Shown here: positions 1,676 to 12,983 of the stretch, one piece after another
Position numbering within the stretch: position 1 is the stretch's first letter
Layout of the letters: every line of letters begins with the position of its first letter
NCBI GenBank assembly: GCA_903870305.1
Contig: CAIQCM010000082.1
Coordinates: 1 to 15,159 of the forward strand
Reading direction: 5' to 3'
Length of the DNA: 15,159 bases
DNA from: an uncultured bacterium
Lineage (GTDB): Bacteria; Patescibacteriota; Patescibacteriia; CAIQCM01
Position numbers and translations under genes: made by a program
The notes under the pieces: model-generated
Database searches by the model: none
What the model was told of the DNA's origin: nothing
What the model saw: the letters and a program-made list of their open reading frames with translations, nothing else

Positions 1676-1746
1676 AACCAAGAACCAAGAACCAATTTCC
1701 AAGAAATTGATCTTGTTTGGAAATTGGTTCTTGGTTCTTGGTTTTT
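1676..1746. repeat. Heptad-based inverted repeat, 27-bp perfect arms
   Basis: Left arm 1676-1702 reads as 7-nt units AACCAAG, AACCAAG, AACCAAT, TTCCAAG. Right arm 1717-1743 reads TTGGAAA, TTGGTTC, TTGGTTC, TTGGTTT and is the exact reverse complement of the left over 27 bp. The loop is 14 nt. A short T run follows the right arm, so the transcript could behave as an intrinsic terminator for argS. The right arm shares 20 consecutive bases (1716-1735) with a second copy at 7105-7124. Confidence 0.9.
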
Positions 1747-1808
1747 ACCCCCGCGGGGTCTGTATACAAAAAGTATTCAGTAGAGCCGTTTTCCACACTA
1801 GCTATTAG

Positions 1809-1837
1809 TTGGCGTATGGGATAACATTAGTTATTAG
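1809..1837 (+). promoter_or_regulatory. Candidate promoter for the bactofilin operon
   Basis: TTGGCG at 1809-1814, a 17-nt spacer, then TATTAG at 1832-1837. Each box matches the sigma70 consensus at 4 of 6 positions. The predicted start near 1844 would leave a leader of about 15 nt without a Shine-Dalgarno sequence before the ATG at 1859. The boxes overlap the ATTAGTT heptads, so chance resemblance is possible. Confidence 0.35.
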
Positions 1838-1846
1838 TCATTTAGA
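1826..1846 (+). repeat. Three 7-nt-period units upstream of the bactofilin gene
   Basis: Consecutive units ATTAGTT (1826-1832), ATTAGTC (1833-1839) and ATTTAGA (1840-1846). A further lone ATTAGTT lies at 1804-1810, out of phase. The array shares the heptad period with the arrays at 1676, 7050, 10314, 11549 and 12949, and is closest in sequence to the ATTAGAT array before yidC. Confidence 0.6.
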
Positions 1847-1858
1847 TATCTAAATCAT

Positions 1859-2254
1859 ATGTTCAAAAAAGAAGAAGGAGCCGCGGGCAATGAGACGATC
1901 ATTGCGAACGGCGTTAAGGTTGAAGGGGACTTTTCCTCGCCCGGGAACGTCCGGATTGACGGAACGGTGATTGGCTCGGTCAAGGCCGAGGGCGACCTTA
2001 TTGTCACTGAGACCGCCGTGATCCAGGCCGATGTGTCGGCCGCGAATGCGGTTGTGGCCGGCGAGATTAAAGGCGATATCGCCGCCGTTGAAAAACTTGA
2101 ACTTCTTGGCACCGCCAAGATCCATGGCAACATCGCTTGTCGCACACTGACGGTGGAAGCCGGCGCCGTCATCTCGGGAAACTGCCAAGTGGCGCAAGAG
2201 CGCGCCGCCGCTCGCGAACGAACCCGCGAAACAAAAGTCGAGGCCGCCGCCTGA
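1859..2254 (+). CDS. Bactofilin (polymer-forming cytoskeletal protein)
   Basis: Small cytoskeletal protein that self-assembles into filaments and usually scaffolds envelope or morphogenesis enzymes. The 131-residue product has the short polar N-terminus and the succession of glycine- and valine-rich turns typical of the bactofilin right-handed beta-helix, for example GNVRIDGTVIGSVKAEGDL, followed by ADVSAANAVVAGEIKGDI and later TAKIHGNIACRTLTVEAGA (roughly residues 15-110). It ends in a charged tail rich in Arg and Glu. The length fits the family. The ATG at 1859 is the first in frame after the upstream stops, and no Shine-Dalgarno is visible. It leads a tight run: the next gene starts 7 nt after its stop. 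Confidence 0.9.
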   Translation: MFKKEEGAAGNETIIANGVKVEGDFSSPGNVRIDGTVIGSVKAEGDLIVTETAVIQADVSAANAVVAGEIKGDIAAVEKLELLGTAKIHGNIACRTLTVEAGAVISGNCQVAQERAAARERTRETKVEAAA

Positions 2255-2261
2255 CACCCCG

Positions 2262-3023
2262 ATGTACCATTACATCTACGAAGCATTTTTAACCGACCCC
2301 AAATTCGCCAAACAGCTTTCAGCCATCGAGAATCGGCTGACCGACCTCGGCATTTACGGCAGTGTTCATCGTTTGGCGCTGTTTAAGACCATGAAAGGGA
2401 CGATCCAGGACGCGGTGCGCCGCGGCGCCAAGACGGTGGTCGTGGTGGGGGACGACGGCTCGGTGGCGCGCGCCATCGATGCAATCGCCGAATTTCCCGG
2501 CGTGGTTTTTGGCATCATTCCCATTGGCGACAAGAATTCATTCGCGAAACTTTTGGGGATCGTTGACGCCGCCTCGGCCTGCGACATTCTTTCGGCGCGC
2601 TTGGTCGAGGAGCTTGACCTGGGCAAGGTTAATAAGCATTATTTTTTGACCTCATTGAACATTTCCGGCGCCGTCAAAGCCGAGTGCGACGGTCGCTACA
2701 CCGTTTCGCCGGAGAACGGTGGCGAGATCTGCATCAGCAATTTTTCCATGGACCCCGCGGGTCCGGGCGATCCGCGCGACGGCCGGCTCGAGACCATGGT
2801 CAAGACCGGTTCAAAGGGATTTTTCAAGTCGGTTTTCGCGCGCGCGCGATCCTCTTCCGGACTCAGCGTTTTTCCGACTCATAATGTCGTGGTCCGTTCG
2901 CCGGACAATGCGCAAATGACGGCGGTGGCCGACGGTCAGAGCTACCAGGACGCCGAGTTCAGGGTCGAAGTCGCGCCGCACCGGCTCACGGTCATCGTCG
3001 GCAAAGACCGGGCGATCGCTTGA
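2262..3023 (+). CDS. Diacylglycerol kinase-like / YegS-LCB5-like protein with diverged nucleotide loop
   Basis: Resembles the DAGK catalytic domain family, which phosphorylates diacylglycerol, sphingoid bases or related lipids with ATP. In place of the hallmark GGDGT the protein has GDDGS at residues 63-67 after a hydrophobic strand (KTVVVV). The second conserved block is GIIPIGDKNSFAKLLGI (84-100) instead of the usual G(T)GN(D)FA. A C-terminal VADGQ (222-226) resembles the family's late DG(E) block. At 253 residues it is slightly shorter than YegS (about 300). No signal peptide or membrane segment is seen. The opening (YHYIYEAFLTDPKF) resembles proteins I recall from CPR genomes that are annotated as DAGK family. 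It sits between bactofilin and a PHP gene with minimal spacing. Activity is uncertain because key glycine and threonine positions are altered. Confidence 0.75.
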   Translation: MYHYIYEAFLTDPKFAKQLSAIENRLTDLGIYGSVHRLALFKTMKGTIQDAVRRGAKTVVVVGDDGSVARAIDAIAEFPGVVFGIIPIGDKNSFAKLLGIVDAASACDILSARLVEELDLGKVNKHYFLTSLNISGAVKAECDGRYTVSPENGGEICISNFSMDPAGPGDPRDGRLETMVKTGSKGFFKSVFARARSSSGLSVFPTHNVVVRSPDNAQMTAVADGQSYQDAEFRVEVAPHRLTVIVGKDRAIA

Positions 3024-3024
3024 T

Positions 3025-3984
3025 ATGGCGCTCATCGATCTTCATGCTCACACCACATATTCCGACGGCCATGATACGCCGTCGGCGCTTGTTAAAATGG
3101 CAGCCGAAAACAAGGTCGCGGTTTTGGGCGTTACCGACCATGATAATTTGGACGGGCTCCCCGAAGCGATCGCGGCGGGCAAGGCGCACGGGGTCAGAAT
3201 AGTTTGTGGGGTTGAAATAACCACTGGCTTTCATGGGCAGACGATCCACATGCTTGGTTACGGCGTGCCGCTTGATAACGCCGAGTTCAATGATTTTTTG
3301 GGCAAGCTCTATCGCCATCGGAAAACGTTGATGACGCAGGTTGTGGAAAAACTGAATGTCGATTTTAAAGCGGCCGGCCGCCAGACCGTTGATCTTGATG
3401 ATTTCATTTCGTCGCAAGGCCAATATTTCAACAATGAAAAAACCGCACAATATCTGGTGGTGAACGGATTTTTGCCGGAGTTTGAACCGGCCATTCATCT
3501 GATGTTTTCCCTTTCCCGAGGCGGCGCGAGCGGCGTTGCTAAACACATGGCTTCTTCGGTGGAAGCCATTGCCGCGATCCATAAAGCCGGCGGCTTGGCG
3601 ATCTTGTCGCATCCGTTCGCCGCCGGGACGTCGCTCCGGAAGATCGACCCCACCTCGGAGGGGCAGGAAAATTTGCTCAAAGAAATGATCGCCGCAGGCA
3701 TTGACGGCATGGAATGCTATCAGTCGGAATATGGCCCCGAAGAAACGTCATTCGCTTTGTCGCTTGCGAAAAAATATGACCTGCTCGCTTCTGCCGGAAG
3801 CGATTGGCACGGGGCTATTTGCGACGTTCCAGGAGATATGAAGGACAGGAAAAGTTTTTACCCCGAGCACATCGGCGGCCTCGGCACGACGTCCGAGATG
3901 ATCGCCCCGCTTCTGGAACGCCTGGGCCTGCCCCGCGGAGCCGAAGCGAAGTGGGGGGTTGGCAAACAAGGTGATATTTGGTAA
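3025..3984 (+). CDS. PHP-domain metal-dependent phosphoesterase (TrpH/RNase AM-like)
   Basis: Member of the polymerase-and-histidinol-phosphatase superfamily. Relatives hydrolyse 3',5'-nucleoside bisphosphates or trim RNA 5' ends, using a trinuclear metal site. The metal-ligand blocks are present in order: DLHAHTTYSDG (H7, H9, D14), GVTDHDNLDG (D38, H39), GVEIT (E64), AILSHPFA (H196) and SAGSDWHG (D260, H262). Its 319 residues are close to the size of the YciV/TrpH group. The ATG at 3025 is one base after the stop of the preceding gene, implying translational coupling with the DAGK-like gene. The exact substrate cannot be told from sequence. An alternative role is a HisK-type phosphatase, but the short insertion domain and the terminal SDWHG favour TrpH-like. 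Confidence 0.88.
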   Translation: MALIDLHAHTTYSDGHDTPSALVKMAAENKVAVLGVTDHDNLDGLPEAIAAGKAHGVRIVCGVEITTGFHGQTIHMLGYGVPLDNAEFNDFLGKLYRHRKTLMTQVVEKLNVDFKAAGRQTVDLDDFISSQGQYFNNEKTAQYLVVNGFLPEFEPAIHLMFSLSRGGASGVAKHMASSVEAIAAIHKAGGLAILSHPFAAGTSLRKIDPTSEGQENLLKEMIAAGIDGMECYQSEYGPEETSFALSLAKKYDLLASAGSDWHGAICDVPGDMKDRKSFYPEHIGGLGTTSEMIAPLLERLGLPRGAEAKWGVGKQGDIW

Positions 3985-3994
3985 TATTGATTTT

Positions 3995-4042
3995 CGCAGT
4001 TATCAATTAACTGCGGGTTTGCGCAGTAGGCGGTCGACCCGC
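3995..4042 (+). other. Overlapping, mutually exclusive hairpins ahead of the homing endonuclease gene
   Basis: The motif CGCAGT occurs at 3995-4000 and 4022-4027, and its complement ACTGCG at 4010-4015. The central copy can pair with either neighbour: 3995-4002 with 4008-4015 (8 bp, loop 5) or 4010-4015 with 4022-4027 (6 bp, loop 6). A third stem, GCGGGT (4013-4018) with ACCCGC (4037-4042), also competes for the centre. No T run follows, so this is not a standard terminator. It lies between the PHP stop and the ATG at 4052. Confidence 0.55.
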
Positions 4043-4051
4043 GATCGCCAT

Positions 4052-4696
4052 ATGCGTTTAGGGCCAAAACTAAAAGCCGCTTGGGAACCGATTTGGACGC
4101 CGGGATTGGCGTACCTTGTTGGCTTGATCGCGACCGATGGTTGTTTGTCAGGCGATGGGCGGCACATTGACATAACCTCGAAAGATTTTCAGTTGTTGGA
4201 AACGGTTAACGAGATATTGCCGCGCCGGCAAAAAATCGCTTTCAAGCGGAATGGTCATGGTCAAACCGCGTATTGCATCCAGATAGGCGACGTCGCAATG
4301 TATCGTTGGCTGTTGCAATTAGGTTTAACGCCAAGAAAGTCAAAGGCCATCGGGCGGTTGAAGATACCGAAGGAATTATTCGCTGATTTTTTTCGCGGCG
4401 TATTTGATGGTGATGGATCGGCGTATTGTTATTGCGATCGTCGTTGGGCGGCCAGTACGACTGTGTGTCTGTCTGTCGCGTCTGCGAGCATTAAGTTTAT
4501 TTCTTTCTTGAGAAATAAGTTATCAATAGCATTGGGTATTAAGGGGTCGGTTTCGGGTTTTCGCTGTGCAGTTTTTCAGTTGAGATATGCGAAGCGCGAA
4601 TCAAGAAAGCTGGCTGCTTGGATATATTATTCAGATGATGTACCCTGTTTGTTGAGGAAAAGAGAAAAAGTGAAAAATATTTTGCTCGGGTGGTGA
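4052..4696 (+). CDS. LAGLIDADG homing endonuclease, overlapping tRNA-Leu
   Basis: Single-chain LAGLIDADG endonuclease, a site-specific DNA-cutting enzyme of selfish elements. From the ATG at 4052 (214 aa), the first dodecapeptide is YLVGLIATDG at residues 21-30 and the second is FFRGVFDGDGS at 113-123. Each ends in the catalytic acidic residue. Between them, DGRHIDITSKD (35-45) is typical of the two-motif family. The frame is open back to a TTG at 3959, but that would overlap the PHP gene and add a basic stretch without family resemblance, so ATG 4052 is preferred; no Shine-Dalgarno is seen. The last four codons and the stop lie within the tRNA-Leu gene (from 4684). No split host gene, intein motif or intron boundary was recognised, so it looks free-standing. 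Similar genes beside tRNAs are known to me from CPR genomes. tRNA-Leu transcription must start inside or before this gene. Confidence 0.88.
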   Translation: MRLGPKLKAAWEPIWTPGLAYLVGLIATDGCLSGDGRHIDITSKDFQLLETVNEILPRRQKIAFKRNGHGQTAYCIQIGDVAMYRWLLQLGLTPRKSKAIGRLKIPKELFADFFRGVFDGDGSAYCYCDRRWAASTTVCLSVASASIKFISFLRNKLSIALGIKGSVSGFRCAVFQLRYAKRESRKLAAWIYYSDDVPCLLRKREKVKNILLGW

Positions 4697-4766
4697 AATG
4701 GTATACACGTCAGCTTGAGGTGCTGATGGTCGAAAGGCCGTGGAGGTTCGAGTCCTCTCCCGAGCA
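4684..4766 (+). tRNA. tRNA-Leu(GAG)
   Basis: An 83-nt type II tRNA. The acceptor stem GCTCGGG pairs with CCCGAGC. The D-arm GTG/CAC has a GG-containing loop. The anticodon stem TCAGC/GCTGA encloses loop TTGAGGT, giving anticodon GAG. The long variable arm GGTC-GAAA-GGCC supports leucine. The T-arm loop is TTCGAGT, and the discriminator is A, as expected for tRNA-Leu. CCA is not encoded. The 3' end of the homing endonuclease ORF overlaps its first 13 bases. A terminator follows immediately. Confidence 0.96.
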
Positions 4767-4798
4767 TTAAAAAACCGACCCCTGGGCCGGTTTTTTAA
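4767..4798. terminator. Bidirectional intrinsic terminator shared by two convergent tRNAs
   Basis: The arm 4767-4777 (TTAAAAAACCG) is the exact complement of 4788-4798 (CGGTTTTTTAA). Two further C-G pairs lie inside, around a CCTG loop. Having A6 on one side and T6 on the other makes it functional on both strands. It directly separates tRNA-Leu (plus) from tRNA-Val (minus). Confidence 0.93.
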
Positions 4799-4799
4799 T

Positions 4800-4871
4800 T
4801 GCACGCTGTAGGGATCGAACCTACGGCCTTCTCCGTGTAAAGGAGTTGCTCTACCGCTGAGCTAAGCGTGC
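4800..4871 (-). tRNA. tRNA-Val(UAC)
   Basis: A 72-nt tRNA read on the minus strand. The acceptor stem GCACGCT pairs with AGCGTGC. The D-arm is GCTC/GAGC with loop AGCGGTA. The anticodon loop TTTACAC gives anticodon TAC (UAC). The T-arm GTAGG/CCTAC has loop TTCGATC, and the discriminator is A. CCA is not encoded. Position 27-43 is an A-A mismatch in the anticodon stem, and the other stems pair fully. It converges on tRNA-Leu and shares its terminator. Confidence 0.96.
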
Positions 4872-4924
4872 TTGATCGTTTATTCAAACTAGCAGACCCG
4901 CGGAATATTTTCCAGTCGCGGGGC

Positions 4925-4953
4925 TTGATTTTTTTATCGAAGTTGCTTATTGT
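4925..4953 (+). promoter_or_regulatory. Candidate promoter for the 4985 membrane-protein gene
   Basis: TTGATT at 4925-4930, a 17-nt spacer, then TATTGT at 4948-4953. Each box matches consensus at 4 of 6 positions. The predicted start near 4960 gives a leader of about 25 nt that contains the Shine-Dalgarno at 4973. A hairpin CCCGCG (4897-4902) with CGCGGG (4917-4922) lies just upstream. Confidence 0.4.
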
Positions 4954-4972
4954 CATTTCAGGTCTTTGTCAC

Positions 4973-4978
4973 AAGGAG
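4973..4978 (+). promoter_or_regulatory. Strong Shine-Dalgarno (AAGGAG) fixing the start at 4985
   Basis: AAGGAG lies 6 nt before the ATG at 4985. The reading frame continues upstream to a TTG at 4868, but that lies in the tRNA-Val gene. This site therefore decides the start. It is one of the few clear Shine-Dalgarno sequences in the window. Confidence 0.85.
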
Positions 4979-4984
4979 AAATTC

Positions 4985-5674
4985 ATGGAAAAGAATGCCA
5001 ACTCCGTTTCGGATCTGCGGCCGATCAAGTTCGGCTGGCTCATCGCCCTGTTTCTTTTTGCTGGGATCATAGGTGCCTCGAGAGGCGGTGCGTATTTTAT
5101 CAAGAGAATGTTCGAGGTCGGAAGGGCGGAGTATTTGATGCCGACCGCAACCATGGTTGTTGTACTCGCCGCGCTTCTGTTTGTTACGGTAAGGTTCATG
5201 CGCGTCTATTGGCGCCGCAATCGGATCGGCAGCGAAGTGATGATATTCAAGTTCCGCAGTTCGGCCGACGCGGCCGGGTATATCGTGCCCCCGGGCGTTG
5301 ATCGCTACGAATTTGCCGCTTCGATGCAAGGCAAAACTCCTATCGACTGCTCCTACGTGACCTATTGGCAGGGCGGATGGTTAAAGCCACCGGGCCGGTT
5401 CGTTCGCTTTGTGGGCGGCAGGGAATACGATCAGCAATGCGAGATACGTCCGGTCGGCTGGCAGACCAAGGATCTTCCGTGCCAGCAACTCAGGGTGCGC
5501 GACGGGTTCAATAACGTCATGACAATGCCGGCGCAAGAGCTCATCACAAACGCCGAGCTTGTCGATCTCGGCACCTTCAATTTGAGCGAGGTTATGTCCG
5601 GTCTTCGCAAGATGCTTGATACGCTCGCCCAGATATCCCCCCCGAAGATCGAGCGACAAATGTTGTCCAACTGA
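4985..5674 (+). CDS. Membrane protein of unknown function (two TM segments)
   Basis: A 229-residue protein that I do not recognise. A short polar N-terminus is followed by two hydrophobic segments: residues about 16-38 (starting FGWLIALFLFAGIIGA) and 50-72 (ending in VVLAALLFVTVRFM). A basic stop-transfer patch (RVYWRRNR) follows, then a soluble domain of about 150 residues with no family motif I can name. The soluble part holds aromatic-rich stretches (YVTYWQGGW) and three cysteines. The positive-inside rule would put it in the cytoplasm. It has its own candidate promoter, a clear Shine-Dalgarno and a terminator at 5687, so it is probably monocistronic. Coding status is supported by the ribosome-binding site, the length and the membrane topology. 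Confidence 0.75.
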   Translation: MEKNANSVSDLRPIKFGWLIALFLFAGIIGASRGGAYFIKRMFEVGRAEYLMPTATMVVVLAALLFVTVRFMRVYWRRNRIGSEVMIFKFRSSADAAGYIVPPGVDRYEFAASMQGKTPIDCSYVTYWQGGWLKPPGRFVRFVGGREYDQQCEIRPVGWQTKDLPCQQLRVRDGFNNVMTMPAQELITNAELVDLGTFNLSEVMSGLRKMLDTLAQISPPKIERQMLSN

Positions 5675-5686
5675 GTCGAATCTTTC

Positions 5687-5721
5687 AAGCGCTCCCGCTT
5701 CCGTCGGGGCGCTTCTTTTTT
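5687..5721 (+). terminator. Intrinsic terminator after the 4985 gene
   Basis: AAGCG (5687-5691) pairs with CGCTT (5710-5714), and CCCG (5694-5697) with CGGG (5705-5708). A small bulge lies between the two stems, and a T6 run follows at 5716-5721. Confidence 0.88.
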
Positions 5722-5735
5722 ATCCGCAGACAATC

Positions 5736-5744
5736 TGCTATCAT
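5736..5744 (+). promoter_or_regulatory. Extended -10 promoter placing +1 at the ATG of the 5751 gene
   Basis: TGCTATCAT is an extended -10 element (TGn plus TATCAT at 5739-5744). No convincing -35 is seen; the expected place is the T run of the preceding terminator. Exactly 6 nt separate the -10 from the ATG at 5751, so the transcript would begin at or next to the start codon. Confidence 0.5.
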
Positions 5745-5750
5745 ATATTC

Positions 5751-5999
5751 ATGCAATATTTTATCGGGATACTGGGGGCGGTGGCCGGGTTCATGCTGGT
5801 TTGGAAGACATCGGCCGTGCTTAGTTTTACCGGCCGAATCGATTTTGCCGAAAAGTATTTGGGCACCGAAGGCGGCTCACGGCTTTTCATCAAAATCGTC
5901 GGCGTCCTCATTATTTTTGTTGCTTGGCTTTACATGTTTAACATGGGCGGGTGGATACTCACGACGCTATTCTTGCCCGGCCACGCCAATCCTTCTTAA
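5751..5999 (+). CDS. Small membrane protein of unknown function, probably leaderless
   Basis: An 82-residue protein with two hydrophobic segments. One is N-terminal (YFIGILGAVAGFMLVWKT) and one C-terminal (from about residue 49, IVGVLIIFVAWLYMF). They are joined by a loop with GRIDFAEKYLGTEGGSRLF. From memory, a very similar layout (WKT, then GRI-WAEK-LGTEGG-RLFYK) recurs as an uncharacterised small protein in many CPR genomes; I cannot check that here. No enzyme motif is present. ATG 5751 is favoured over upstream in-frame starts because those lie before a terminator and because the extended -10 sits 6 nt upstream. The next gene starts 12 nt after its stop, so the two are probably cotranscribed. 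Confidence 0.78.
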   Translation: MQYFIGILGAVAGFMLVWKTSAVLSFTGRIDFAEKYLGTEGGSRLFIKIVGVLIIFVAWLYMFNMGGWILTTLFLPGHANPS

Positions 6000-6011
6000 A
6001 GCGTAAATCAT

Positions 6012-6560
6012 ATGTCGATCCCTTCGAACAGCATTTTGCTTGACGCGCCCGCGGTGCTCGCCAAAGCCGGCGTGCGCGCCGGTTTCATCGTCGCGGACAT
6101 GGGTTGCGGCACGAGCGGACACTTTGTCATTCCCGCCGCTCGCATGGCCGGACCGACCGGCCGCATTTACGCGATCGACATTTTAAAGTCGGTTTTGGCC
6201 GCGGTGGAAAGCCGCGCCAAACTCGAGGGCGTAAATTCGATTGAGACGCTTTGGGGAAATTGCGAAATGTGGGAAGGCGTGAAGATAGCCGCGAACGCCG
6301 TCGATATCACGCTTGTCATCAATAACTTGTATTTGGCAAAGAACCGTCAGATATTCCTGAGCGAAGCCGCCCGGCTCACCAAGGTCGGCGGCAAAGTGAT
6401 CGTCATCGATTGGAAGACCGTGGCGAGCCCCTTGGGTCCGACGCCTGAAAGCCGCGTTTCTCCCGAAGCGGCCAAGGCGGATGCTATGGCCGCCGGACTC
6501 AGGTTCGTCGAGGCATGGGATCCGGCGCCGTATTTTTGGGGGTTGGTCTTTTCCAAATAA
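6012..6560 (+). CDS. Class I SAM-dependent methyltransferase
   Basis: A 182-residue Rossmann-fold methyltransferase. Motif I is VADMGCGTSGHF (residues about 28-39), the GxGxG-type S-adenosylmethionine loop. The following GRIYAIDI supplies the acidic ribose-binding residue at the end of strand 2. VDITLVINNLYLA corresponds to motif IV, and GGKVIVIDWK is strand 5. The fold resembles small UbiE/PrmA-like proteins (Methyltransf_25/31-type), but the substrate cannot be assigned. No membrane segment is seen. The start ATG 6012 is 12 nt after the upstream small membrane-protein gene, without a Shine-Dalgarno. A terminator at 6568 ends the two-gene unit. Confidence 0.88.
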   Translation: MSIPSNSILLDAPAVLAKAGVRAGFIVADMGCGTSGHFVIPAARMAGPTGRIYAIDILKSVLAAVESRAKLEGVNSIETLWGNCEMWEGVKIAANAVDITLVINNLYLAKNRQIFLSEAARLTKVGGKVIVIDWKTVASPLGPTPESRVSPEAAKADAMAAGLRFVEAWDPAPYFWGLVFSK

Positions 6561-6567
6561 TCCTAAC

Positions 6568-6592
6568 AAGACCCCGGATACGGGGTCTTTTT
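6568..6592 (+). terminator. Intrinsic terminator after the methyltransferase gene
   Basis: A perfect 9-bp stem, 6568-6576 (AAGACCCCG) with 6581-6589 (CGGGGTCTT). The loop is GATA and a T run follows. Confidence 0.93.
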
Positions 6593-6594
6593 AG

Positions 6595-6623
6595 TTGCGA
6601 AATTTTTCGACTTCGGGTAAGCT
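6595..6623 (+). promoter_or_regulatory. Candidate promoter for the 6632 gene
   Basis: TTGCGA (6595-6600), a 17-nt spacer, then TAAGCT (6618-6623). The -10 is weak but resembles TAAGGT before thyX. Eight nt separate it from the ATG at 6632, so a leaderless or near-leaderless transcript is expected. The spacing and the upstream terminator support a promoter here. Confidence 0.35.
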
Positions 6624-6631
6624 CTGAAAAT

Positions 6632-7039: not shown

Positions 7040-7042
7040 CTT

Positions 7043-7139
7043 GGGTAAAAACCAAGAACCAAGAACCAAGCTCCAAAGAAGAACCAAGCCCCAATTCTAC
7101 AATATTTGGAAATTGGTTCTTGGTCCTTGGTTCTTACCC
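7043..7139. repeat. Second heptad-based inverted repeat (diverged copy)
   Basis: The left part reads AACCAAG three times (7050-7056, 7057-7063, 7064-7070), then CTCCAAA, with another AACCAAG at 7082-7088. The right part reads TTGGAAA (7106-7112), TTGGTTC (7113-7119), TTGGTCC (7120-7126) and TTGGTTC (7127-7133). The outer ends GGGTAA and TTACCC also pair. It is related to the copy at 1676-1746: 20 identical bases in the right arm, and both continue into TTACCC. Its centre is less perfect than that of the first copy. Confidence 0.88.
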
Positions 7140-7149
7140 GCAGGTTTTT

Positions 7150-7506: not shown

Positions 7507-7622
7507 GAAAAGAGATAAGAAATACGATTTTTTGACTCCGGAACTCGCGTGGGCTATGGCATAGCGGTTCCTACGCTCAAACAGTCCTCGTCTAAAAAAT
7601 CCTATTTCTTATCCCTTTTCCT
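7505..7622. repeat. Long imperfect inverted repeat between convergent yraN and tmk
   Basis: Left arm 7505-7536 and right arm 7590-7622 are near-perfect reverse complements over about 33 bp, with two substitutions and one single-base gap. Each arm carries a 6-nt A/T run, so the RNA from either strand ends in a stem plus U run. The 53-nt centre holds a smaller hairpin (GCTATG-G-CATAGC), flanked by GGAAC (7540-7544) and GTTCC (7567-7571). It probably serves as a bidirectional terminator for both genes but is far larger than needed. No flanking target duplication was seen. Confidence 0.85.
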
Positions 7623-7626
7623 GTAT

Positions 7627-8346
7627 TTATTGAAAAATATCCCTTGCCAGCGCGGCAGTATCGGCCTTGACCGCCTCGAGCGGTTGCTCGGCGTTCAGGT
7701 AATGCACCTTGGTGCCGTGCTCTTCCCATATTTGACGGAACCACGCCGATTCAAAACGTTCGGCGGCTTTGGTGAGGAATTCTTCTTTTTCGAAAATTGC
7801 ATTATCGGCCTTATTAGATCGTCCGCCGATGCGGCTCATACCGGTTTTAGCCGAACATTTTACTATTACCAAGTGTCCGGGAGCGTGGTCGAAAGCCAAA
7901 TTATTGCCGCCGTAAGAAATGATCTCCTCAAGCCGCACGCCGTCTTTCATGATCGGTTGGTAAACCATCGATGTGGACAGGCCGCGGTCTTGAATGATGA
8001 TGGCGTTACGTTCCAGCATGGGGATAAGAAAACGGCGATAGAGGATAAGGCGATCCATGGCATAGGCCGCGGCGACCGTGCGGCGGTCGTAATTGGCGTC
8101 ATTAGAAATGAGTTCTTTGCGTATCGCCGCACCGACCCATACCTGCGTCGGTTCGGCTGAAAAAATAACCTCCTTGATCGGTGTCCATGGCAAGGGGAGT
8201 TCGCCGGTACTCTTGCAGGTCTCGGGAAGGTTAAAAACTTTCAGGTTTTTTTCTTTGGCTATTGTTTCGCAAAAAAATTTAACAAGGGTCGTCTTGCCGC
8301 TGCCGTCGATGCCGTCGAACATGATGAATTGCGGATATGCGGGCAT
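7627..8346 (-). CDS. tmk: Thymidylate kinase
   Basis: Phosphorylates dTMP to dTDP with ATP. From ATG 8346 (239 aa): the P-loop is GIDGSGKTT at 12-20; SAEPTQ at 63-68 is the substrate-side EPT block, followed by VGAAIRKELI; MDR at 97-99 and IIQDRGLSTS at 117-126 match the conserved DR and (D/Q)R blocks; the LID region is GGRSNKADNAIFEK (174-187). An extension of about 20 residues before SAEPT makes it longer than the usual 200-215. The frame extends to a GTG at 8376, but that codon overlaps the predicted -10 box, so ATG 8346 is chosen. The gene is transcribed divergently from thyX, which makes the substrate dTMP. Confidence 0.87.
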   Translation of the reverse strand: MPAYPQFIMFDGIDGSGKTTLVKFFCETIAKEKNLKVFNLPETCKSTGELPLPWTPIKEVIFSAEPTQVWVGAAIRKELISNDANYDRRTVAAAYAMDRLILYRRFLIPMLERNAIIIQDRGLSTSMVYQPIMKDGVRLEEIISYGGNNLAFDHAPGHLVIVKCSAKTGMSRIGGRSNKADNAIFEKEEFLTKAAERFESAWFRQIWEEHGTKVHYLNAEQPLEAVKADTAALARDIFQ

Positions 8347-8374
8347 ATATATCTGCTGTTGATAACCTGCGTTC

Positions 8375-8402
8375 ACTATAACAAATTATCCCCCTTGCGC
8401 AA
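8375..8402 (-). promoter_or_regulatory. Promoter for tmk with extended -10
   Basis: On the minus strand TTGCGC (8402-8397), a 16-nt spacer, then TATAGT (8380-8375) preceded by TGT, giving an extended -10. The predicted +1 near 8368 leaves about 22 nt before ATG 8346. It rules out the GTG at 8376 as a start. The -35 is part of the palindrome TTGCGCAA (8395-8402). Confidence 0.6.
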
Positions 8403-8404
8403 TG

Positions 8405-8434
8405 TTGCGCAGCGCCGCGGGCTTGTGTTAAGGT
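8405..8434 (+). promoter_or_regulatory. Promoter for thyX-like gene
   Basis: TTGCGC (8405-8410), an 18-nt spacer, then TAAGGT (8429-8434) preceded by TGT. The -35 is back to back with the tmk -35: TTGCGCA occurs at 8395-8401 and 8405-8411. GAAGG at 8456-8460 is the Shine-Dalgarno for ATG 8470 (9-nt gap). Confidence 0.5.
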
Positions 8435-8469
8435 CATGGAAACCCGATTTTTAACGAAGGCGAGACGAT

Positions 8470-10254
8470 ATGGAAAACACCACGCAAACGCACACCTTTG
8501 ACCATGCCGAAGATCGCGCTGCGGTCATCATTGATCGGACCACCGGCGAACGCTTTGTCACCTACGGCGATGGCGTTACTTTGCCCTACGGCGCTTTTAT
8601 CAAGGAAGAGCTTTTCAAGCTTGCCGCCGGCTATCTTACTTCGCCAACATCGAACGTCACGGCGGTCGATGGCAAACAGCTTGCCGGACTTGTCGGCGCG
8701 CTTCTTGCCCGCCAGAGCCGCGCCCAGGGTTCGGTCATCGATATTTTGGCGAAAGAATTCTTGCGACCCGACGGTTCGGTTGATCGCGAAAAAGCTGAGG
8801 CCTTGATCGGCCGCGTGCTGTTGCAGTTTGGCGACGATTCGGTTCAAGAGCTTGAATACGCCACCGTGCTCGTCACCTCAATCTCAAACCTCGCCACCAA
8901 AAAGATCGAAGATCGCCGGCTGGGGAGCTACATGGAGCAATCGAGCCGCTACGTGATCTATACTTCTCGCGATCCGGTCACCGGCGCCTGGCGCTATTAT
9001 CGCGAGCCGCGGATCATGGCAAGCGTTTTTGCGAGCCGCTATGTCACGCTCATGGACAAGTGCTTTACCACCTACGCCAAGTTGGTCGAAGCGCTTTCGT
9101 CATATTATGGACAGGTGAAACCGAAAGACGCGGCCGAGTATGCCATTCGCCCCAATGATACGAAGAAATATCGTTATGCCGCGCTGGGGTCTGACGATGA
9201 GCGACGCGAATTTGATCGCGTCTACAAAATGGACTTGAAGACGCGCGCCTGCGACACGGCGCGCATCGTGCTGCCGGCCTCGACCCTCACCAACATGGCG
9301 ATGGTTGCGAACGGACGCACCTTTGAGTATCTCTTGAAGGTGCTGTACTCGTCCGACGTGCCGGAGTTTGCCGATGTCGCGACGCGCCTGCATGAAACAT
9401 TGGGCAAGGTCATTCCGCAATATGTGAAACGCGCTCTTCCCGAAGGTGATGCGTTCATCCGCGAGACGCGGCGGCGCGGGCAAGAAATTGCGCGTTCTTT
9501 TCCGAACGCGTTTGCACCGGACGCCGCGGGAGAAACGGATTTTCTTGACGTTCCGCGCCTCATCGCCAACACGCACGAAGCCAAAGCGCATTTGCTCGCC
9601 GCGGTTCTATATCCGCATGTTCGCTGTTCGTATCGAAAATTGATTGAAACGATCAATGATGCCAAGGAACGAAATCTCGCCGGACTGATCGGCTACCTCG
9701 CCGGCGATCGCAAGGGCCGCCGCGACCGCAGCCCGCGCGCCTTTGAGCACGGCTATGACATTACGGTCGATGTCACGGGCAACTTTGGCATTTTTCGCGA
9801 CCTGCACCGCCACCGCATGATGACCTTGGACCGCCAAACGTTGAATCCGTACCTCGGCTTCGCTGTTCCCGCCGATGTCATCGCTGTTGGTATGGGGGAA
9901 ACCGTTCGCGCTCTTGCCGCCGAGATCCTGGCGCTCTACGGCGACCTTGATCAATACCTTGGCGCCGACGCCGCCGAGTACTGCGTGCTCTTCGGGCACA
10001 ACCTGCGTTTCAAGATCGGCATGAACTTGCGCGAAGCCCAGCACTTGCTGGAACTCCGCACCATTCCTCAGGGACACCCCGACTACCGCCGCATCTGCCA
10101 AAAGATCCATGACGAAATTTTGAAGCGTGCGCCGTGGATCGATGAGACCGGATTGCTCAAATATGTCGATCACAACGACTACCATTGGGCTCGCGCCGGC
10201 TCTGAGGCCTTCCAAAGCCAAGAGGCGCTGCGGCGGGGGATCAAACTCGAATAG
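8470..10254 (+). CDS. thyX: Tandem ThyX-like protein (FAD-dependent thymidylate synthase family)
   Basis: ThyX makes dTMP from dUMP using FAD and methylene-tetrahydrofolate. At 594 aa this is more than twice the usual 220-250, and two ThyX-like halves can be read. In half 1, DRRLGSYMEQSSRY (148-161) aligns with the signature RHRxxSxNExSxRY, followed by DTARIVLP (262-269) and NGRTFEYLLKVL. In half 2, FRDLHRHRMMTLDRQ contains RHR at 447-449, followed by NLREAQHLLELRT and HPDYR. Half 1 thus lost RHR but kept S-E-S-RY; half 2 kept RHR but lost most of the second part. It starts at ATG 8470 with Shine-Dalgarno GAAGG and ends at the terminator at 10260. Divergent tmk supports a role in dTTP supply. 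Whether it is catalytically active is unproven. Confidence 0.82.
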   Translation: MENTTQTHTFDHAEDRAAVIIDRTTGERFVTYGDGVTLPYGAFIKEELFKLAAGYLTSPTSNVTAVDGKQLAGLVGALLARQSRAQGSVIDILAKEFLRPDGSVDREKAEALIGRVLLQFGDDSVQELEYATVLVTSISNLATKKIEDRRLGSYMEQSSRYVIYTSRDPVTGAWRYYREPRIMASVFASRYVTLMDKCFTTYAKLVEALSSYYGQVKPKDAAEYAIRPNDTKKYRYAALGSDDERREFDRVYKMDLKTRACDTARIVLPASTLTNMAMVANGRTFEYLLKVLYSSDVPEFADVATRLHETLGKVIPQYVKRALPEGDAFIRETRRRGQEIARSFPNAFAPDAAGETDFLDVPRLIANTHEAKAHLLAAVLYPHVRCSYRKLIETINDAKERNLAGLIGYLAGDRKGRRDRSPRAFEHGYDITVDVTGNFGIFRDLHRHRMMTLDRQTLNPYLGFAVPADVIAVGMGETVRALAAEILALYGDLDQYLGADAAEYCVLFGHNLRFKIGMNLREAQHLLELRTIPQGHPDYRRICQKIHDEILKRAPWIDETGLLKYVDHNDYHWARAGSEAFQSQEALRRGIKLE

Positions 10255-10259
10255 TTATC

Positions 10260-10293
10260 AGAGGTCGTTTGCGCAAGCACTCGGCCTCTTTTT
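10260..10293 (+). terminator. Intrinsic terminator after thyX
   Basis: AGAGG (10260-10264) pairs with CCTCT (10285-10289). Extra CG pairs lie next to it, a GC-rich loop is enclosed, and a T5 run ends at 10293. Confidence 0.8.
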
Positions 10294-10301
10294 GAACGCA
10301 G

Positions 10302-10823
10302 GTGAGGTGTTTTGTTTTTGGTTTCTGGTTTCTGTTGAAAAAAGCGGTCTACCAGCGATTGGCCGATGCCAGAAGTATTCTAGCGGAACGCGGCCACCAT
10401 ATCGACCACAAGGCCGACCTAGATCCTCCTGGCGAGCGTGGCATTGCCGAGTACATAAAGGAAAAGTACGGCCACGAATTCGTCTTCGTGACGGACTATC
10501 CTACCGAGGTTAGGCCGTTCTATCACCGCCGGCACGAGGATGATCAGTCATTGACCAACAGCTTCGACCTTTTGTGGAAGGGGCTCGAAGTCACAACCGG
10601 TGCGCAGCGTGAACATCACGTGGACATCCTGTCGAGACAGGCCGAAGAGAAGGGCGTGCCGTTGGAGTCAATCAAATACTATCTTGATTTCTTCCGTTAT
10701 GGCTGTCCGCCGCACGGGGGATTCGGGGCGGGTTTGACCAGACTACTGATGGTTCTCCTCGACCGCAAGAATGTGCGCGAAGTCACATTCCTCTACCGGG
10801 GTCCAAATCGTTTGACCCCCTAG
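10302..10823 (+). CDS. C-terminal fragment of an Asp/Asn-type class II tRNA synthetase (possible pseudogene)
   Basis: A 173-residue ORF from GTG 10302, matching only the second half of the catalytic core of AspRS/AsnRS (or archaeal asparagine synthetase AsnA). Visible blocks in order are FVFVTDYPTEVRPFYHRRHEDD; SFDLLWKGLEVTTGAQREHH; YLDFFRYGCPPHGGFGAG; motif 3 GFGAGLTRLLMVLLDR; and the closing REVTFLYRGPNRLTP. The OB-fold domain and motifs 1 and 2 are absent, and sequence directly upstream is the thyX terminator, so nothing is recoverable by frameshift. The first 11 or so residues are encoded by GTTTCTG heptads, so the true start is unclear (TTG 10335 is an alternative); no Shine-Dalgarno is seen. 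The frame is intact and motif 3 Arg is kept. Either a decaying duplicate of aspS or a retained paralogue; the former is likelier. Confidence 0.7.
   Translation: MRCFVFGFWFLLKKAVYQRLADARSILAERGHHIDHKADLDPPGERGIAEYIKEKYGHEFVFVTDYPTEVRPFYHRRHEDDQSLTNSFDLLWKGLEVTTGAQREHHVDILSRQAEEKGVPLESIKYYLDFFRYGCPPHGGFGAGLTRLLMVLLDRKNVREVTFLYRGPNRLTP
10314..10334 (+). repeat. GTTTCTG heptad array fused to the synthetase fragment
   Basis: Three 7-nt units: GTTTTTG (10314-10320), GTTTCTG (10321-10327) and GTTTCTG (10328-10334). They lie exactly where the homology to the tRNA synthetase begins. They share the heptad period with the other arrays, with a unit similar to TTGGTTC. Confidence 0.65.
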
Positions 10824-10847
10824 AGTCGATCGATTCATAGTCGCAGT

Positions 10848-10882
10848 GGCGGCTGAGGGAATATTCCTCAGCCGCCTTTTTT
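10848..10882 (+). terminator. Intrinsic terminator after the synthetase fragment
   Basis: A perfect 11-bp GC-rich stem, 10848-10858 (GGCGGCTGAGG) with 10866-10876 (CCTCAGCCGCC). The loop is 7 nt and a T6 run follows at 10877-10882. Confidence 0.96.
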
Positions 10883-10883
10883 C

Positions 10884-10912
10884 TTGACAAAATTTGATTT
10901 TATTTTTATATT
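10884..10912 (+). promoter_or_regulatory. Near-consensus promoter giving a leaderless HIT-family mRNA
   Basis: TTGACA (10884-10889), a 17-nt spacer, then TATATT (10907-10912). The ATG at 10919 is 6 nt after the -10, so the predicted +1 is the start codon itself. The -35 begins two bases after the T run of the preceding terminator. Confidence 0.8.
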
Positions 10913-10918
10913 TATTCC

Positions 10919-11374
10919 ATGATTGATTGTATTTTTTGTAAAATTGCGAAGGGAGAGGTTCCATGCCATAAAATATGGGAAGACGAAAAGTATATGGCTT
11001 TTTTGTCGATTTTTCCTAACACTGAAGGTTTTTCGGTTGTCATAACAAAGGAGCACTACCCGAGCTATGCCTTTGATTTGCCAGACGATGTTCTTTCTGG
11101 TCTAGTTTTGGCTGCAAAAAAAGTTGGAAGACTGATCGATTCGAAAATTGATGACGTTGGAAGAACGGGCATGATATTTGAGGGTTTTGGCGTTGATCAT
11201 ATTCATGCAAAACTGTTTCCTATGCACGGAACTGGTAATTTGTCCGAGTGGAAACCACATAAATCAAATGTAGATAAATATTTTGATCAATACGAAGGAT
11301 ATATATCATCACACGATTTCAAGAGAGCGGATGATAATAAATTAAAGGAACTGGCAAAAAAAATAACCGGATAA
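10919..11374 (+). CDS. HIT-family hydrolase/transferase, variant HxHxK motif, AT-rich
   Basis: A histidine-triad superfamily protein of 151 aa; relatives hydrolyse or transfer nucleotides from dinucleoside polyphosphates and nucleoside phosphoramidates. The N-terminus MIDCIFCKIAKGEVP carries the usual CxxC (C4, C7). The HIT motif HxHxHxx appears as HIHAKLF (94-100): the first two histidines, including the nucleophile position (H96), are kept and the third is Lys98. The C-terminal part (SEWKPHKSNVDKYFDQYEGY) resembles proteins I recall from CPR genomes. The gene is much more AT-rich than its neighbours: 21 of 60 bases are G or C at 10921-10980, against 35 of 60 at 8521-8580. This suggests acquisition. 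It has its own promoter, lacks a leader, and no clear terminator follows. Confidence 0.9.
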   Translation: MIDCIFCKIAKGEVPCHKIWEDEKYMAFLSIFPNTEGFSVVITKEHYPSYAFDLPDDVLSGLVLAAKKVGRLIDSKIDDVGRTGMIFEGFGVDHIHAKLFPMHGTGNLSEWKPHKSNVDKYFDQYEGYISSHDFKRADDNKLKELAKKITG

Positions 11375-11406
11375 ATGTAATGCACTGGAATCAGAAACCC
11401 ATTTGG

Positions 11407-11456
11407 GGCTCATCTTGCATTGGACAAGTCTGGCTCATCTTGCGTTGGACAAGTCT
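11407..11456 (+). repeat. Two 25-nt tandem direct repeats upstream of the nusA promoter
   Basis: Copies at 11407-11431 and 11432-11456 are directly adjacent and identical except for one A/G difference in the middle (TTGCATTGG versus TTGCGTTGG). They end 5 nt before the -35 box. The placement suits an activator or repressor site, but no known operator is recognised. Confidence 0.9.
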
Positions 11457-11461
11457 CGGAT

Positions 11462-11490
11462 TTGACGGGTTTGTCCGCCTCTGCTATAGT
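11462..11490 (+). promoter_or_regulatory. Strong promoter upstream of nusA
   Basis: TTGACG (11462-11467), a 17-nt spacer, then TATAGT (11485-11490) preceded by TGC (extended -10). The predicted +1 is about 11497. This is one of the two best promoter matches in the window. Confidence 0.8.
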
Positions 11491-11498
11491 ATTGAACT

Positions 11499-11529
11499 GG
11501 ACATGTTGATACTCAACATGTCCTTTTTT
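11499..11529 (+). terminator. Perfect terminator hairpin at the start of the nusA leader (possible attenuator)
   Basis: The 11-bp arm 11499-11509 (GGACATGTTGA) is an exact complement of 11513-11523 (TCAACATGTCC). The loop is TAC and T6 follows at 11524-11529. It starts about 2 nt after the predicted +1, so transcripts ending here would be about 30 nt. No gene lies between the promoter and this hairpin, which suggests conditional termination ahead of nusA. Confidence 0.75.
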
Positions 11530-11548
11530 ATACCTCATCTTATTCAGC

Positions 11549-11626
11549 ATGAAGCATAAAACATGAAGCATTCCGGTCGAGCCGCATTCGACAAGAGTGT
11601 TTAGTGTTTCATGATTCATGTTTCAT
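11549..11626. repeat. Heptad inverted repeat in the nusA leader
   Basis: Left units are ATGAAGC, ATAAAAC, ATGAAGC (11549-11569). Right units are GTTTCAT, GATTCAT, GTTTCAT (11606-11626). The outer units pair with one G-U wobble each. A small internal stem, GTCGA with TCGAC, sits in the centre. The right arm ends 9 nt before the nusA ATG at 11636, so folding could affect translation. Confidence 0.75.
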
Positions 11627-11635
11627 TCAATTGAT

Positions 11636-12934
11636 ATGTCTAACCCAATCGTTCAAGCTATTAAGCAAATTTGCGACGAAAAGCAGCTCTCGGCCGAAGC
11701 GGTCCTTGAGACCGTCGAAGCGGCGCTTGCGGCCGCATACCGCAAGGACTTCGGCGAAAAGAATCAGAATGTGAAGATCGTGTTCGACCCCGAGACGGGG
11801 AACATGCGCGCTTTTGATGTTAAGACGGTTGTCGAGGATGAGCTTTATGAAAAGTACGCCAAGGAAGAGGAAGAACGGAAGAAGGCGGCCGAAGAAGCTG
11901 CGGCGGCGGGAGTAAAGCCGGAAGAAAAGAAAGAAGAAAAAAGGATCGAGACCCCGGCGCCGGTCCTAAACGCCGACGGCACGCCCGTGCCGGAAGAACC
12001 GGTATTTAATCCGAAATTGAATTTGTCCTTGGCTGCCGCGCGCGAAATAAAAAAGGACGCGGCGCTTGGCGACGAGCTTAAGTTGGAACTCGAGATCCCG
12101 GCCGCGTTCGGGCGCATGGCCGCGATGACGGCGAAACAAGTGATCACCCAGCGCTTGCGCGAAGCCGAGCGCAACATGGTCTATAACGAAATGAAAGGGA
12201 ATGAAGGCCAGCTTGTCATGGGCGTGGTTCAGCGCCGCGAAGGCCGCTTGGTGCTGGTCGACTTGGGCCGCATTGCCGCGATCATGCCGCCCGAAGAGCA
12301 GGCGCCGCAAGAGAACTACGAACCCGGCGCGCGCATTAAGGTGTACATCAAATCGGTGACGCTCGGGATCCGCGGGCCGCAGGTCGTGGTTTCGCGCGCC
12401 TCCGACGAAATGGTTAAAAAACTTTTCACTTTGGAAATTCCCGAGGTCTCGACCGGCACGGTCGTGATCCACAACGTCGCCCGCGAAGCCGGCTCGCGCT
12501 CGAAGGTCTCGGTCTCTTCGACGCAGGCGAACATCGATCCGATCGGCTCCTGCATCGGCCAGCGCGGTACGCGCATTCAGACGATCATCTCGGAACTGGG
12601 CGGCGAAAAGATCGACATCATCCAATACTCAGAGGATGCCGGCAAGTATATCGGCATGGCGCTCGCGCCGGCCAAGGTCGGCTCCGTCGAATTGAACGAT
12701 GCCGAGAAGATCGCGACCGTCACCGTGCCGGCCGACCAGCTGTCGTTAGCGATCGGACGCGGCGGACAGAACGTGCGCCTCGCTTCCTCGCTCACCGGCT
12801 GGAAAATAAACATTCTCGACTCCGGCGCGCCGGCCGCGCCCGCCGAGCTCAGCTCGGTTGCCTCGGAAGCGATTCCGGAAGAAGCGGCCAAGGAAGAGGT
12901 TAAAGCGGATGCGGCTGAAGAAACCAAGGAATAG
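11636..12934 (+). CDS. nusA: Transcription termination/antitermination factor NusA
   Basis: Binds RNA polymerase and nascent RNA, promoting pausing, hairpin-dependent termination and antitermination. From ATG 11636 (432 aa): the N-terminal RNA-polymerase-binding domain spans about 1-180; an S1 domain runs from about 190 to 255 (GQLVMGVVQRREGRLVLVDL); KH1 carries DPIGSCIGQRGTRIQ (301-315); KH2 carries LAIGRGGQNVRLA (371-383); an acidic Ala/Glu tail follows. Residues 74-128 are a Lys/Glu- and Pro-rich insertion inside the N-terminal domain. No C-terminal acidic repeats of the E. coli kind are present. An earlier in-frame ATG at 11618 lies in the heptad repeat and is less likely. No rimP precedes it. 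The leader contains a terminator at +2, so autoregulation is plausible. Confidence 0.95.
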   Translation: MSNPIVQAIKQICDEKQLSAEAVLETVEAALAAAYRKDFGEKNQNVKIVFDPETGNMRAFDVKTVVEDELYEKYAKEEEERKKAAEEAAAAGVKPEEKKEEKRIETPAPVLNADGTPVPEEPVFNPKLNLSLAAAREIKKDAALGDELKLELEIPAAFGRMAAMTAKQVITQRLREAERNMVYNEMKGNEGQLVMGVVQRREGRLVLVDLGRIAAIMPPEEQAPQENYEPGARIKVYIKSVTLGIRGPQVVVSRASDEMVKKLFTLEIPEVSTGTVVIHNVAREAGSRSKVSVSSTQANIDPIGSCIGQRGTRIQTIISELGGEKIDIIQYSEDAGKYIGMALAPAKVGSVELNDAEKIATVTVPADQLSLAIGRGGQNVRLASSLTGWKINILDSGAPAAPAELSSVASEAIPEEAAKEEVKADAAEETKE

Positions 12935-12948
12935 CTCGTCGGCAACGG

Positions 12949-12976
12949 ATTAGATATTAGAAATTAGATATTAGAT
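12949..12976 (+). repeat. Four ATTAGAT heptads between nusA and yidC
   Basis: Consecutive 7-nt units: ATTAGAT (12949-12955), ATTAGAA (12956-12962), ATTAGAT (12963-12969) and ATTAGAT (12970-12976), followed by ATT. The array ends 7 nt before the yidC ATG and occupies the position where a Shine-Dalgarno would be expected. No complementary arm is present. Confidence 0.85.
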
Positions 12977-12983
12977 ATTCGGT

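Follow-up and report, generated by a model that had tools for sequence, protein, structure and literature searches.

Arrays with an exact 7-nt period in a Patescibacteria genome as probable arms of small dispersed inverted-repeat elements

Short tandemly repeated repetitive (STRR) sequences of cyanobacteria are tandem heptanucleotide repeats, and miniature inverted-repeat transposable elements (MITEs) are small dispersed inverted-repeat elements. Here we examine arrays with an exact 7-nt period that share features with both. They were found in a 15,159-nt stretch of DNA (the window), which is contig C82 (CAIQCM010000082.1) of the draft genome of an uncultured member of the Patescibacteriota (the source genome, G000; 947,774 bp in 160 contigs, 90.5% complete). 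By its NusA relatives the genome belongs to the Patescibacteria: the closest is in the MAG nzgw356 (90% in NusA), followed by records named Uhrbacteria, Patescibacteria group and Magasanikbacteria. An earlier note, made from the window alone, had listed six such sites and ascribed them to one generating mechanism or a structural role rather than one mobile sequence. We think it rather likely that most of these arrays are the arms of small, dispersed, copied inverted-repeat elements that are mainly selfish or neutral.

In most prokaryotic genomes, heptamers are reported to outnumber every other long simple repeat, and a 7-nt polymerase contact has been proposed (Mrazek 2007, as cited in the PubMed Central (PMC) articles PMC4679880 and PMC4692102). 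In the P6b region of the Nostoc tRNA-Leu intron, two complementary 7-nt motifs pair in a stem, and the passages cited describe the region as thought to have been replaced between strains (PMC4476775). The cyanobacterial heptads, named in the earlier note as the nearest analogue, are an apt comparison: both STRR sequences and P6b place tandem 7-mers in non-coding DNA, and the arms of P6b pair (PMC4476775, PMC4692102). The source genome has the tandem 7-nt units in chiefly intergenic DNA, but it differs in having many word families rather than one or a few words, arms of about four heptads, a uniform polarity and an apparently copied element of about 85 bp. Other heptamers are alike in part, as far as the passages cited describe them. 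Marine Beggiatoaceae carry many intergenic copies of TAACTGA direct repeats, but this is one word, located mostly just upstream of start codons (PMC4679880). Xanthomonas and Nostoc carry intergenic heptamers (GGGNATC and GGGGAYT), the majority of four units in Xanthomonas and some inverted, but they are G-rich and discussed as quadruplexes, whereas most words of the source genome are AT-rich and form hairpins by pairing (PMC4692102). Geobacter metallireducens has four-unit elements, made of tandem heptamers (49 copies) or octamers (48 copies) and described as putative regulator sites or RNAs; its heptamer family lies inside genes as well as between them (PMC2700814). Among inverted repeats, repetitive extragenic palindromic (REP) sequences and their paired form, REPINs, are small and dispersed, occur as pairs and singletons, and form several families per genome (PMC3733652). 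The elements here differ from REPs, REPINs and MITEs in their tandem-heptad arms, in having no link to the local Y1 transposase gene and in the lack of any target duplication visible to the eye; moreover, a REP unit is itself a palindrome, whereas the single arm that we folded is not, and the pairs fold through both arms. Heptamer excess, dispersed palindromes and, in a cyanobacterial intron, paired heptads are known in kind. No paper found in the open-licence PMC literature searched unites them in one element whose arms have about four heptads and whose words are specific to a lineage, and none appears to describe heptad arrays in Patescibacteria. The hairpins, scattered between genes here and recurring with other words in many relatives, suggest a very small copied element of a kind not yet described.

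We counted arrays in a sample comprising the window and 40 of the 160 contigs, picked by contig number (262,743 unmasked bases; 13 of the 40 were all N and contributed no sequence). An array was scored at 12 or more matches out of 14 at lag 7, with 20 dinucleotide-preserving shuffles as the null. Intergenic DNA contained 60 period-7 arrays, compared to a shuffle mean of 0.05 (maximum 1), and 0 arrays at each of lags 4, 5, 6, 8, 9, 10 and 11. Lags 14 and 21 gave 38 and 12 arrays, as multiples of 7, while lags 12, 15 and 18 gave 2, 1 and 3. Exact runs between open reading frames (ORFs) numbered 33 at period 7, 30 at 14, 8 at 21, 1 at 12 and 2 at 18, with none at periods 5, 6, 8, 9, 10 or 11 in the sample. 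AACCAAGAACCAAG alone occurred 33 times genome-wide; the reversed-pattern control of that search was invalid because AACCAAG spelled backwards is its own rotation. These counts confirm that arrays with an exact 7-nt period are real in the source genome. The idea of one period in unrelated words held far beyond the window, and in the sampled part of the genome period 7 was commoner than periods 5, 6, 8 and 9, a comparison that had been fixed beforehand. The intergenic location was right in the main, with 68 of 88 arrays not wholly inside an ORF, but some arrays do lie inside: nine in ORFs of 600 nt or less, of which many may be spurious, and 11 in ORFs above that length. In separate counts, 23 of 81 arrays were mostly inside ORFs of at least 90 aa, and 13 of 46 exact period-7 runs fell within ORFs. 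The coding-side figures of the lag test and the coding fraction of the exact-run test were distorted by the all-N contigs and were not used.

The arrays are mostly paired. A complementary arm lay within 120 nt of 68 of the 101 arrays in the source genome, compared to 30 of 505 control flanks taken from other loci, and a direct copy lay near 10 of the 101. The 40 paired elements in the sample ranged from 41 to 180 bp, and 32 of them measured 61-100 bp. Array size was 4.5-5.5 measured units in 67 of 98 cases; raw unit counts overshoot, and calibration on synthetic arrays corrected this size to approximately 3.4-4.4 true units. When folded as single-stranded DNA, seven of eight hand-picked stretches were far beyond their shuffles (z -4.1 to -12.1); the eighth was a half element.

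About ten words occur in the sample overall. Sorting by eye gave the families AACCAAG (A), ATGAARC (B), CTAATRT (C), ATGAACN (D), TAGAACN, GGAATTA (F) and CTTTTAG (G), and the further words AGGTGTC, GGGATTAG, GAGTTGC and GCCACAT. The polarity of an inverted pair is independent of strand, so independent origins should give mixed polarity. We observed uniform polarity in all 32 elements of six families (A 9/9, B 7/7, D 6/6, C 5/5, F 3/3 and G 2/2), with two of the nine A pairs sharing one left arm; the other eight of the 40 elements fell outside these families. Families were assigned blind to orientation for this count, as an earlier count with the same result had sorted elements by left arm and was circular. 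Since the copies of a family, at unlinked places, agree in polarity and have arms of about four heptads, we favor copying over independent slippage at each site. As a separate observation, the third heptad of one arm is often aberrant in families B (ACGYAAC) and D (ACGCACA, ACACACA or ATAAACN), as though the words had been altered together and the irregular unit had stayed put.

Family B makes the case further, with its narrow length, its signature heptad, some interiors in common and a signature that we did not find in the sole same-genus relative among the genomes drawn (the sister genome, G001; 73% complete). All eight sampled B pairs measure 81-87 bp, and 14 of their 16 arms consist of four heptads followed by ATT. 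The arms were retrieved with a four-unit pattern, so that "at least four" is imposed by the search, and "not more than four" was judged from the printed flanks. The third heptad reads ACGYAAC in one arm of six of the eight elements and never in both, and this mismatch gives the hairpin a polarity, in a set partly chosen by that arm. Genome-wide, the signature arm (ACG in heptad 3, with a pattern that also allowed ATG) occurred in 12 copies on 12 contigs. A second arm was recognizable in 11 of these, and the remaining one was a half element; the 11 full copies span 76-87 bp (the search went no lower than 76), with interiors of 14-25 nt. The same search in the sister genome returned no ACG copy and one looser match without ACG. 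Like MITEs, family B has inverted repeats at its ends and homologous copies at places that are not linked, and the straightforward reading is that a single element multiplied in this lineage to give these copies. The earlier exclusion of a mobile sequence is contradicted by such families of seemingly copied heptad-armed inverted repeats.

The interiors of the elements were compared as well. Mean spacer similarity exceeded that of shuffled spacers in four families (A 12.3 versus 7.8, B 7.1 versus 5.2, C 6.1 versus 4.8, D 6.7 versus 5.2). By eye, the B interiors of L243 and L252 are alike, as are those of the window, L042 and L253. We therefore rejected the possibility that interiors are unrelated inserts; given the similarity above shuffled and the clear likeness in some B copies, they are probably diverged copies.

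A full element would consist of an arm, a spacer and a complementary arm, typically 60-100 bp in all, with each arm made of about four heptads (28 nt) and a few further nucleotides; half elements with one arm also occur, and several word families coexist in the genome. We propose that copies of a family descend from each other and were inserted at many sites, chiefly intergenic and in either orientation, while arms would acquire and rearrange their heptads as 7-nt units are gained and lost. Arm pairing appears to be largely kept, to judge from length differences in whole heptads and one paired change at argS. Spread would most likely proceed by recognition of the element as a hairpin, whether single-stranded or cruciform, or by recombination at replication.

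We then turned to the class. Three ATTAG words at period 7 were present in 83 of 285 class genomes, compared to 31 at period 8 and 12 at period 6. Of the 31 period-8 genomes, 25 had one or two matches, while G188 had 47, G247 had 17 and G166 had 6. Period-7 and period-8 arrays numbered 18 and 12 in G188 and 22 and 11 in G247, and the period-8 arrays in stretches of G188 had an inverted partner in 12 of 17 cases (control 12/85). Other words were in period-7 excess in stretches of G193, G175, G247, G260, G231 and G112, which had been selected for many matches. Inverted partners accompanied 13 of 27 arrays in the sister genome (control 9/135), 15 of 18 in G193 (14/90), 14 of 30 period-7 arrays in G188 (26/150) and 20 of 47 in G260, G231 and G112 jointly (13/235). 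In the sister genome, intergenic arrays numbered 14 at period 7 and 0 at periods 4-6 and 8-11. Twenty relatives sampled regardless of matches (one stretch per genome, two stretches masked) gave 10 intergenic period-7 arrays in five genomes, and 3 or fewer at the other periods from 4 to 11. Among NusA-flanking loci the excess was mild: the 49 taken as Patescibacteria-like had 17 arrays at period 7 versus 3-8 at periods 4-6 and 8-12, and the 30 from other phyla had 4 at period 7 versus 0-3 at other periods. Rare runs in other genomes measured 10-29 units. Scanning the genome and its relatives, as the earlier note had proposed, gave a period-7 excess in the source genome, the sister genome and several others of the class. 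Its distribution is uneven: pronounced in certain lineages, it goes unseen in many. A bolder reading, which we hold only tentatively and would not yet bet on, is that miniature mobile elements form an undescribed superfamily across the class, their arms built from about four units of 7 nt (8 nt in some genomes) and their words private to each lineage. Such elements would need neither a Y1 transposase nor a reverse transcriptase to spread, and might be copied from hairpin templates with a unit length set by an enzyme. As a side observation, G175 (stretches L218-L220; a genome of ~0.6 Mb) has 123 matches of GATTANNGATTANNGATTA, seen as a reversed control, and arrays of up to ~29 measured units, mainly direct and not inverted.

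Orthologous sites in the sister genome gave a mixed picture. There were 14 stretch pairs, of which we used argS, yraN, nusA, L050:15953 and L039:4928, plus L016; two others had no array in the source genome, one was at a contig end in the sister genome, and four had unclear alignment or unlike gaps. Two B elements (upstream of nusA and at the L050:15953 site) and one F element were absent from the orthologous gaps compared, and the L050:16700 site has a different heptad-like stretch in the sister genome. At argS, one heptad is changed in both arms with pairing kept, which is not so for the next heptad; at yraN, one arm in the sister genome is two heptads longer than its partner. The comparison at argS and yraN suggests that older elements stay put while their words drift and their unit number shifts by sevens.

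Several of our observations weigh against a family of copied mobile elements. The A elements after argS and before yraN occupy the same sites in both species, so not all elements are recently mobile. We found no clean empty site, as the G001 gaps compared contain other short sequence, and absence from a genome that is 73% complete is no proof. No target-site duplication was visible by eye in 14 flank pairs, and most B interiors have no recognizable kinship. Heptad order along the arm is weakly shared: of 500 shuffles, 11 for B, 36 for A, 78 for D and 101 for C equaled or exceeded the observed value. In G175, 4 of 22 arrays had an inverted partner compared to 57 of 110 controls, the arrays being mostly direct. 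Lastly, a Y1 match (E 0.001) was missing from G193, G175 and G163 among the twelve heptad-rich genomes searched for a mover.

The strongest alternative is pure replication slippage, in which 7-nt polymerase or repair steps would make arrays at each site and hairpins would template the second arm. The reported heptamer abundance and proposed polymerase contact speak for it, as do the weakly conserved heptad order, the rare arrays of 10-29 measured units in relatives, and the lack of Y1 or reverse transcriptase matches in some of the twelve heptad-rich genomes, which core machinery would predict. However, slippage does not account for uniform polarity within families, nor for family B, whose length varies little and whose signature heptad recurs on 12 contigs. 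Array size peaks near four instead of declining from the detection limit. In G188 and G247, period-8 arrays accompany those of period 7, contrary to what one fixed polymerase contact would lead us to expect. We consider slippage on its own unlikely. As a generator, the role given to it in the earlier note, it fits in part: 7-nt steps seem to act on the arms, as in the yraN arm of the sister genome and the runs of 10-29 units, but slippage is not the sole origin. Comparison across the genomes of a single class offers a test of the polymerase-contact conjecture for heptamer excess, because here the excess comes with paired arms, a size of about four units, lineage-specific words and period-8 genomes.

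We next weighed transcribed RNA hairpins under selection, such as terminators, attenuators or 3'-end stabilizers. Paired elements take 30 of the 222 gaps between neighboring genes in the sample of this small genome. Gene calls were longest ORFs, which makes distances to start codons rough. By gap type, elements were present in 23 of 156 co-directional, 4 of 33 convergent and 3 of 33 divergent gaps; these small numbers show no clear preference for a gene arrangement, nor the 3'-end enrichment, chiefly in convergent gaps, of intrinsic terminators. In favor of RNA hairpins, 14 of the 23 co-directional elements start 3-12 nt past the upstream stop codon, the folds are strong in seven of the eight picked stretches, the argS and yraN elements are kept in both species with one heptad showing a paired change, and six of eight sampled B interiors are hairpins that fold better than at least 88% of shuffles. 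However, the other two B interiors and seven C and D interiors were not distinct from shuffles. Stem mismatches on the sense strand of co-directional cases did not favor G.U (17, compared to 32 A.C and 36 transversions), and selection on sense RNA was rejected on this spectrum. The signature arm of family B lies in both orientations to transcription, six sense and four antisense among the ten of 12 copies in co-directional gaps, with one convergent and one divergent gap for the other two. A conserved RNA family was rejected, as the only Rfam matches at gathering score in the window were two tRNAs. The gap distribution and mismatch spectrum therefore argue against terminators or sense hairpins as the main role, notwithstanding the nearness to stop codons, and we regard this explanation as quite unlikely.

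The arms might instead be binding platforms, with four heptads offering four sites to a protein, for example a nucleoid protein that reads spacing over sequence. The size of about four units per arm across families is consistent with this idea, as are the putative regulator elements described in G. metallireducens, which consist of four tandem heptamers or octamers (PMC2700814). The presence of about ten words in one genome is hard to reconcile with such a platform, and we judge it improbable.

A fourth alternative is that the elements are of the REP/REPIN type and moved by a REP-associated tyrosine transposase (RAYT) of the Y1 class. Inverted pairs together with half elements fit this idea, as does the hairpin polarity given by the heptad-3 mismatch of family B, and one Y1 match was found in each of the source and sister genomes. 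The gene in the source genome (L037:4965-5648, C107) is IS200-like and RAYT-sized, and has the palindrome GCCGAGGCGAAGCCTCGG beside and inside it. The palindrome occurs 15 times genome-wide; three copies adjoin or lie within the Y1 gene on C107, and some form close inverted pairs. Gene and palindrome together resemble an ordinary REP/RAYT system, here in a member of the Patescibacteria. The heptad elements do not flank the gene in the manner of RAYT-associated repeats, as the nearest ends ~100 nt away and on one side only. Our search for a mover was limited to Y1 (PF01797) and reverse transcriptase (PF00078) in twelve genomes chosen, except for the source and sister genomes, for many matches to ATTAG or the reversed word. 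The Y1 transposase was rejected as mover, given that it has its own palindrome and that three of the twelve have no match. Furthermore, the single arm tested does not fold, and of eight additional loci surrounding Y1 matches, only L232 contained a heptad array. Reverse transcriptase was rejected as well, with no match in five of the twelve, the source and sister genomes included. A RAYT origin is therefore highly improbable in our estimate, and a mover, if one exists, would be new.

Two minor candidates were considered as well. Integron attC sites have 7-nt core sites with the core RYYYAAC and a variable central hairpin, and ATGAAAC is at odds with this core; a stop-codon heptad closing all frames in three units was dropped since AACCAAG has no stop on either strand.

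Within the window, the three inverted pairs and one single arm among the six sites named beforehand are solid, and the remaining two are weak when taken alone. The complementary arms reported for three sites are present at 1673-1746, 7045-7137 (both AACCAAG) and 11542-11626 (ATGAARC). The first family A element has a plus-strand left arm at 1673-1702 (GAACCAA three times, then TTTCCAA), which pairs with its reverse complement, the minus-strand right arm at 1717-1746, in a 27-bp stem (z -12.1 as single-stranded DNA); the same site in the sister genome has an element with altered heptads. The second, with a left arm at 7045-7077 (plus) and a right arm at 7105-7137 (minus), gave z -7.7 for 7043-7139, and its site is occupied in the sister genome by arms that are two heptads unequal. 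The 85-bp family B element, of a kind the sister genome lacks upstream of nusA, has a plus-strand arm of four heptads and ATT at 11542-11572, a 23-nt interior at 11573-11595 (no strand) that forms a small GC-rich hairpin, and a second arm of four heptads on the minus strand at 11596-11626; by eye, the interior is similar to that of the copy at L042:5052 (C112). The single arm is a family C half element on the minus strand at 12951-12978, with the heptads ATATCTA, ATATCTA, ATTTCTA and ATATCTA, plus ATCCG. We found no partner arm for it, and ATTAGAT, tested as 12945-12982, did not fold alone; its third-heptad variant ATTTCTA recurs in the copy at L050:16718. At 1826-1846, on the plus strand, ATTAGTT and ATTAGTC form a possible remnant of ~2.5 copies, which lies below array detection and was reported neither by Tandem Repeats Finder (TRF) at score 30 nor by the array scan. 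The plus-strand GTTTCTG array at 10314-10334 is weak (TRF score 35) and was picked up by the array scan only at its loose threshold.

Other features were observed in passing. Directly 3' of the GTTTCTG array lies the ORF at 10335-10820, a fragment of a tRNA synthetase of class II (D, K, N), whose match is confined to the C-terminal end of the model (positions 168-303 of 308). A 25-nt unit in two tandem copies (96%) lies at 11407-11456, between a HIT-domain gene and nusA, and an inverted repeat at 7507-7620, with 21-nt arms and a 72-nt spacer, lies between converging genes and has little heptad character. The ORF at 3959-4693 has a LAGLIDADG_3 match (3.5e-9) and overlaps the end of a PHP-domain gene, and its last bases overlap the start of a tRNA-Leu(gag) gene. 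Elsewhere in the source genome, a single AACCAAG arm at L016:862-892 is seemingly translated in the low-complexity tail of an ORF, and the tail in the sister genome is different but of similar length.

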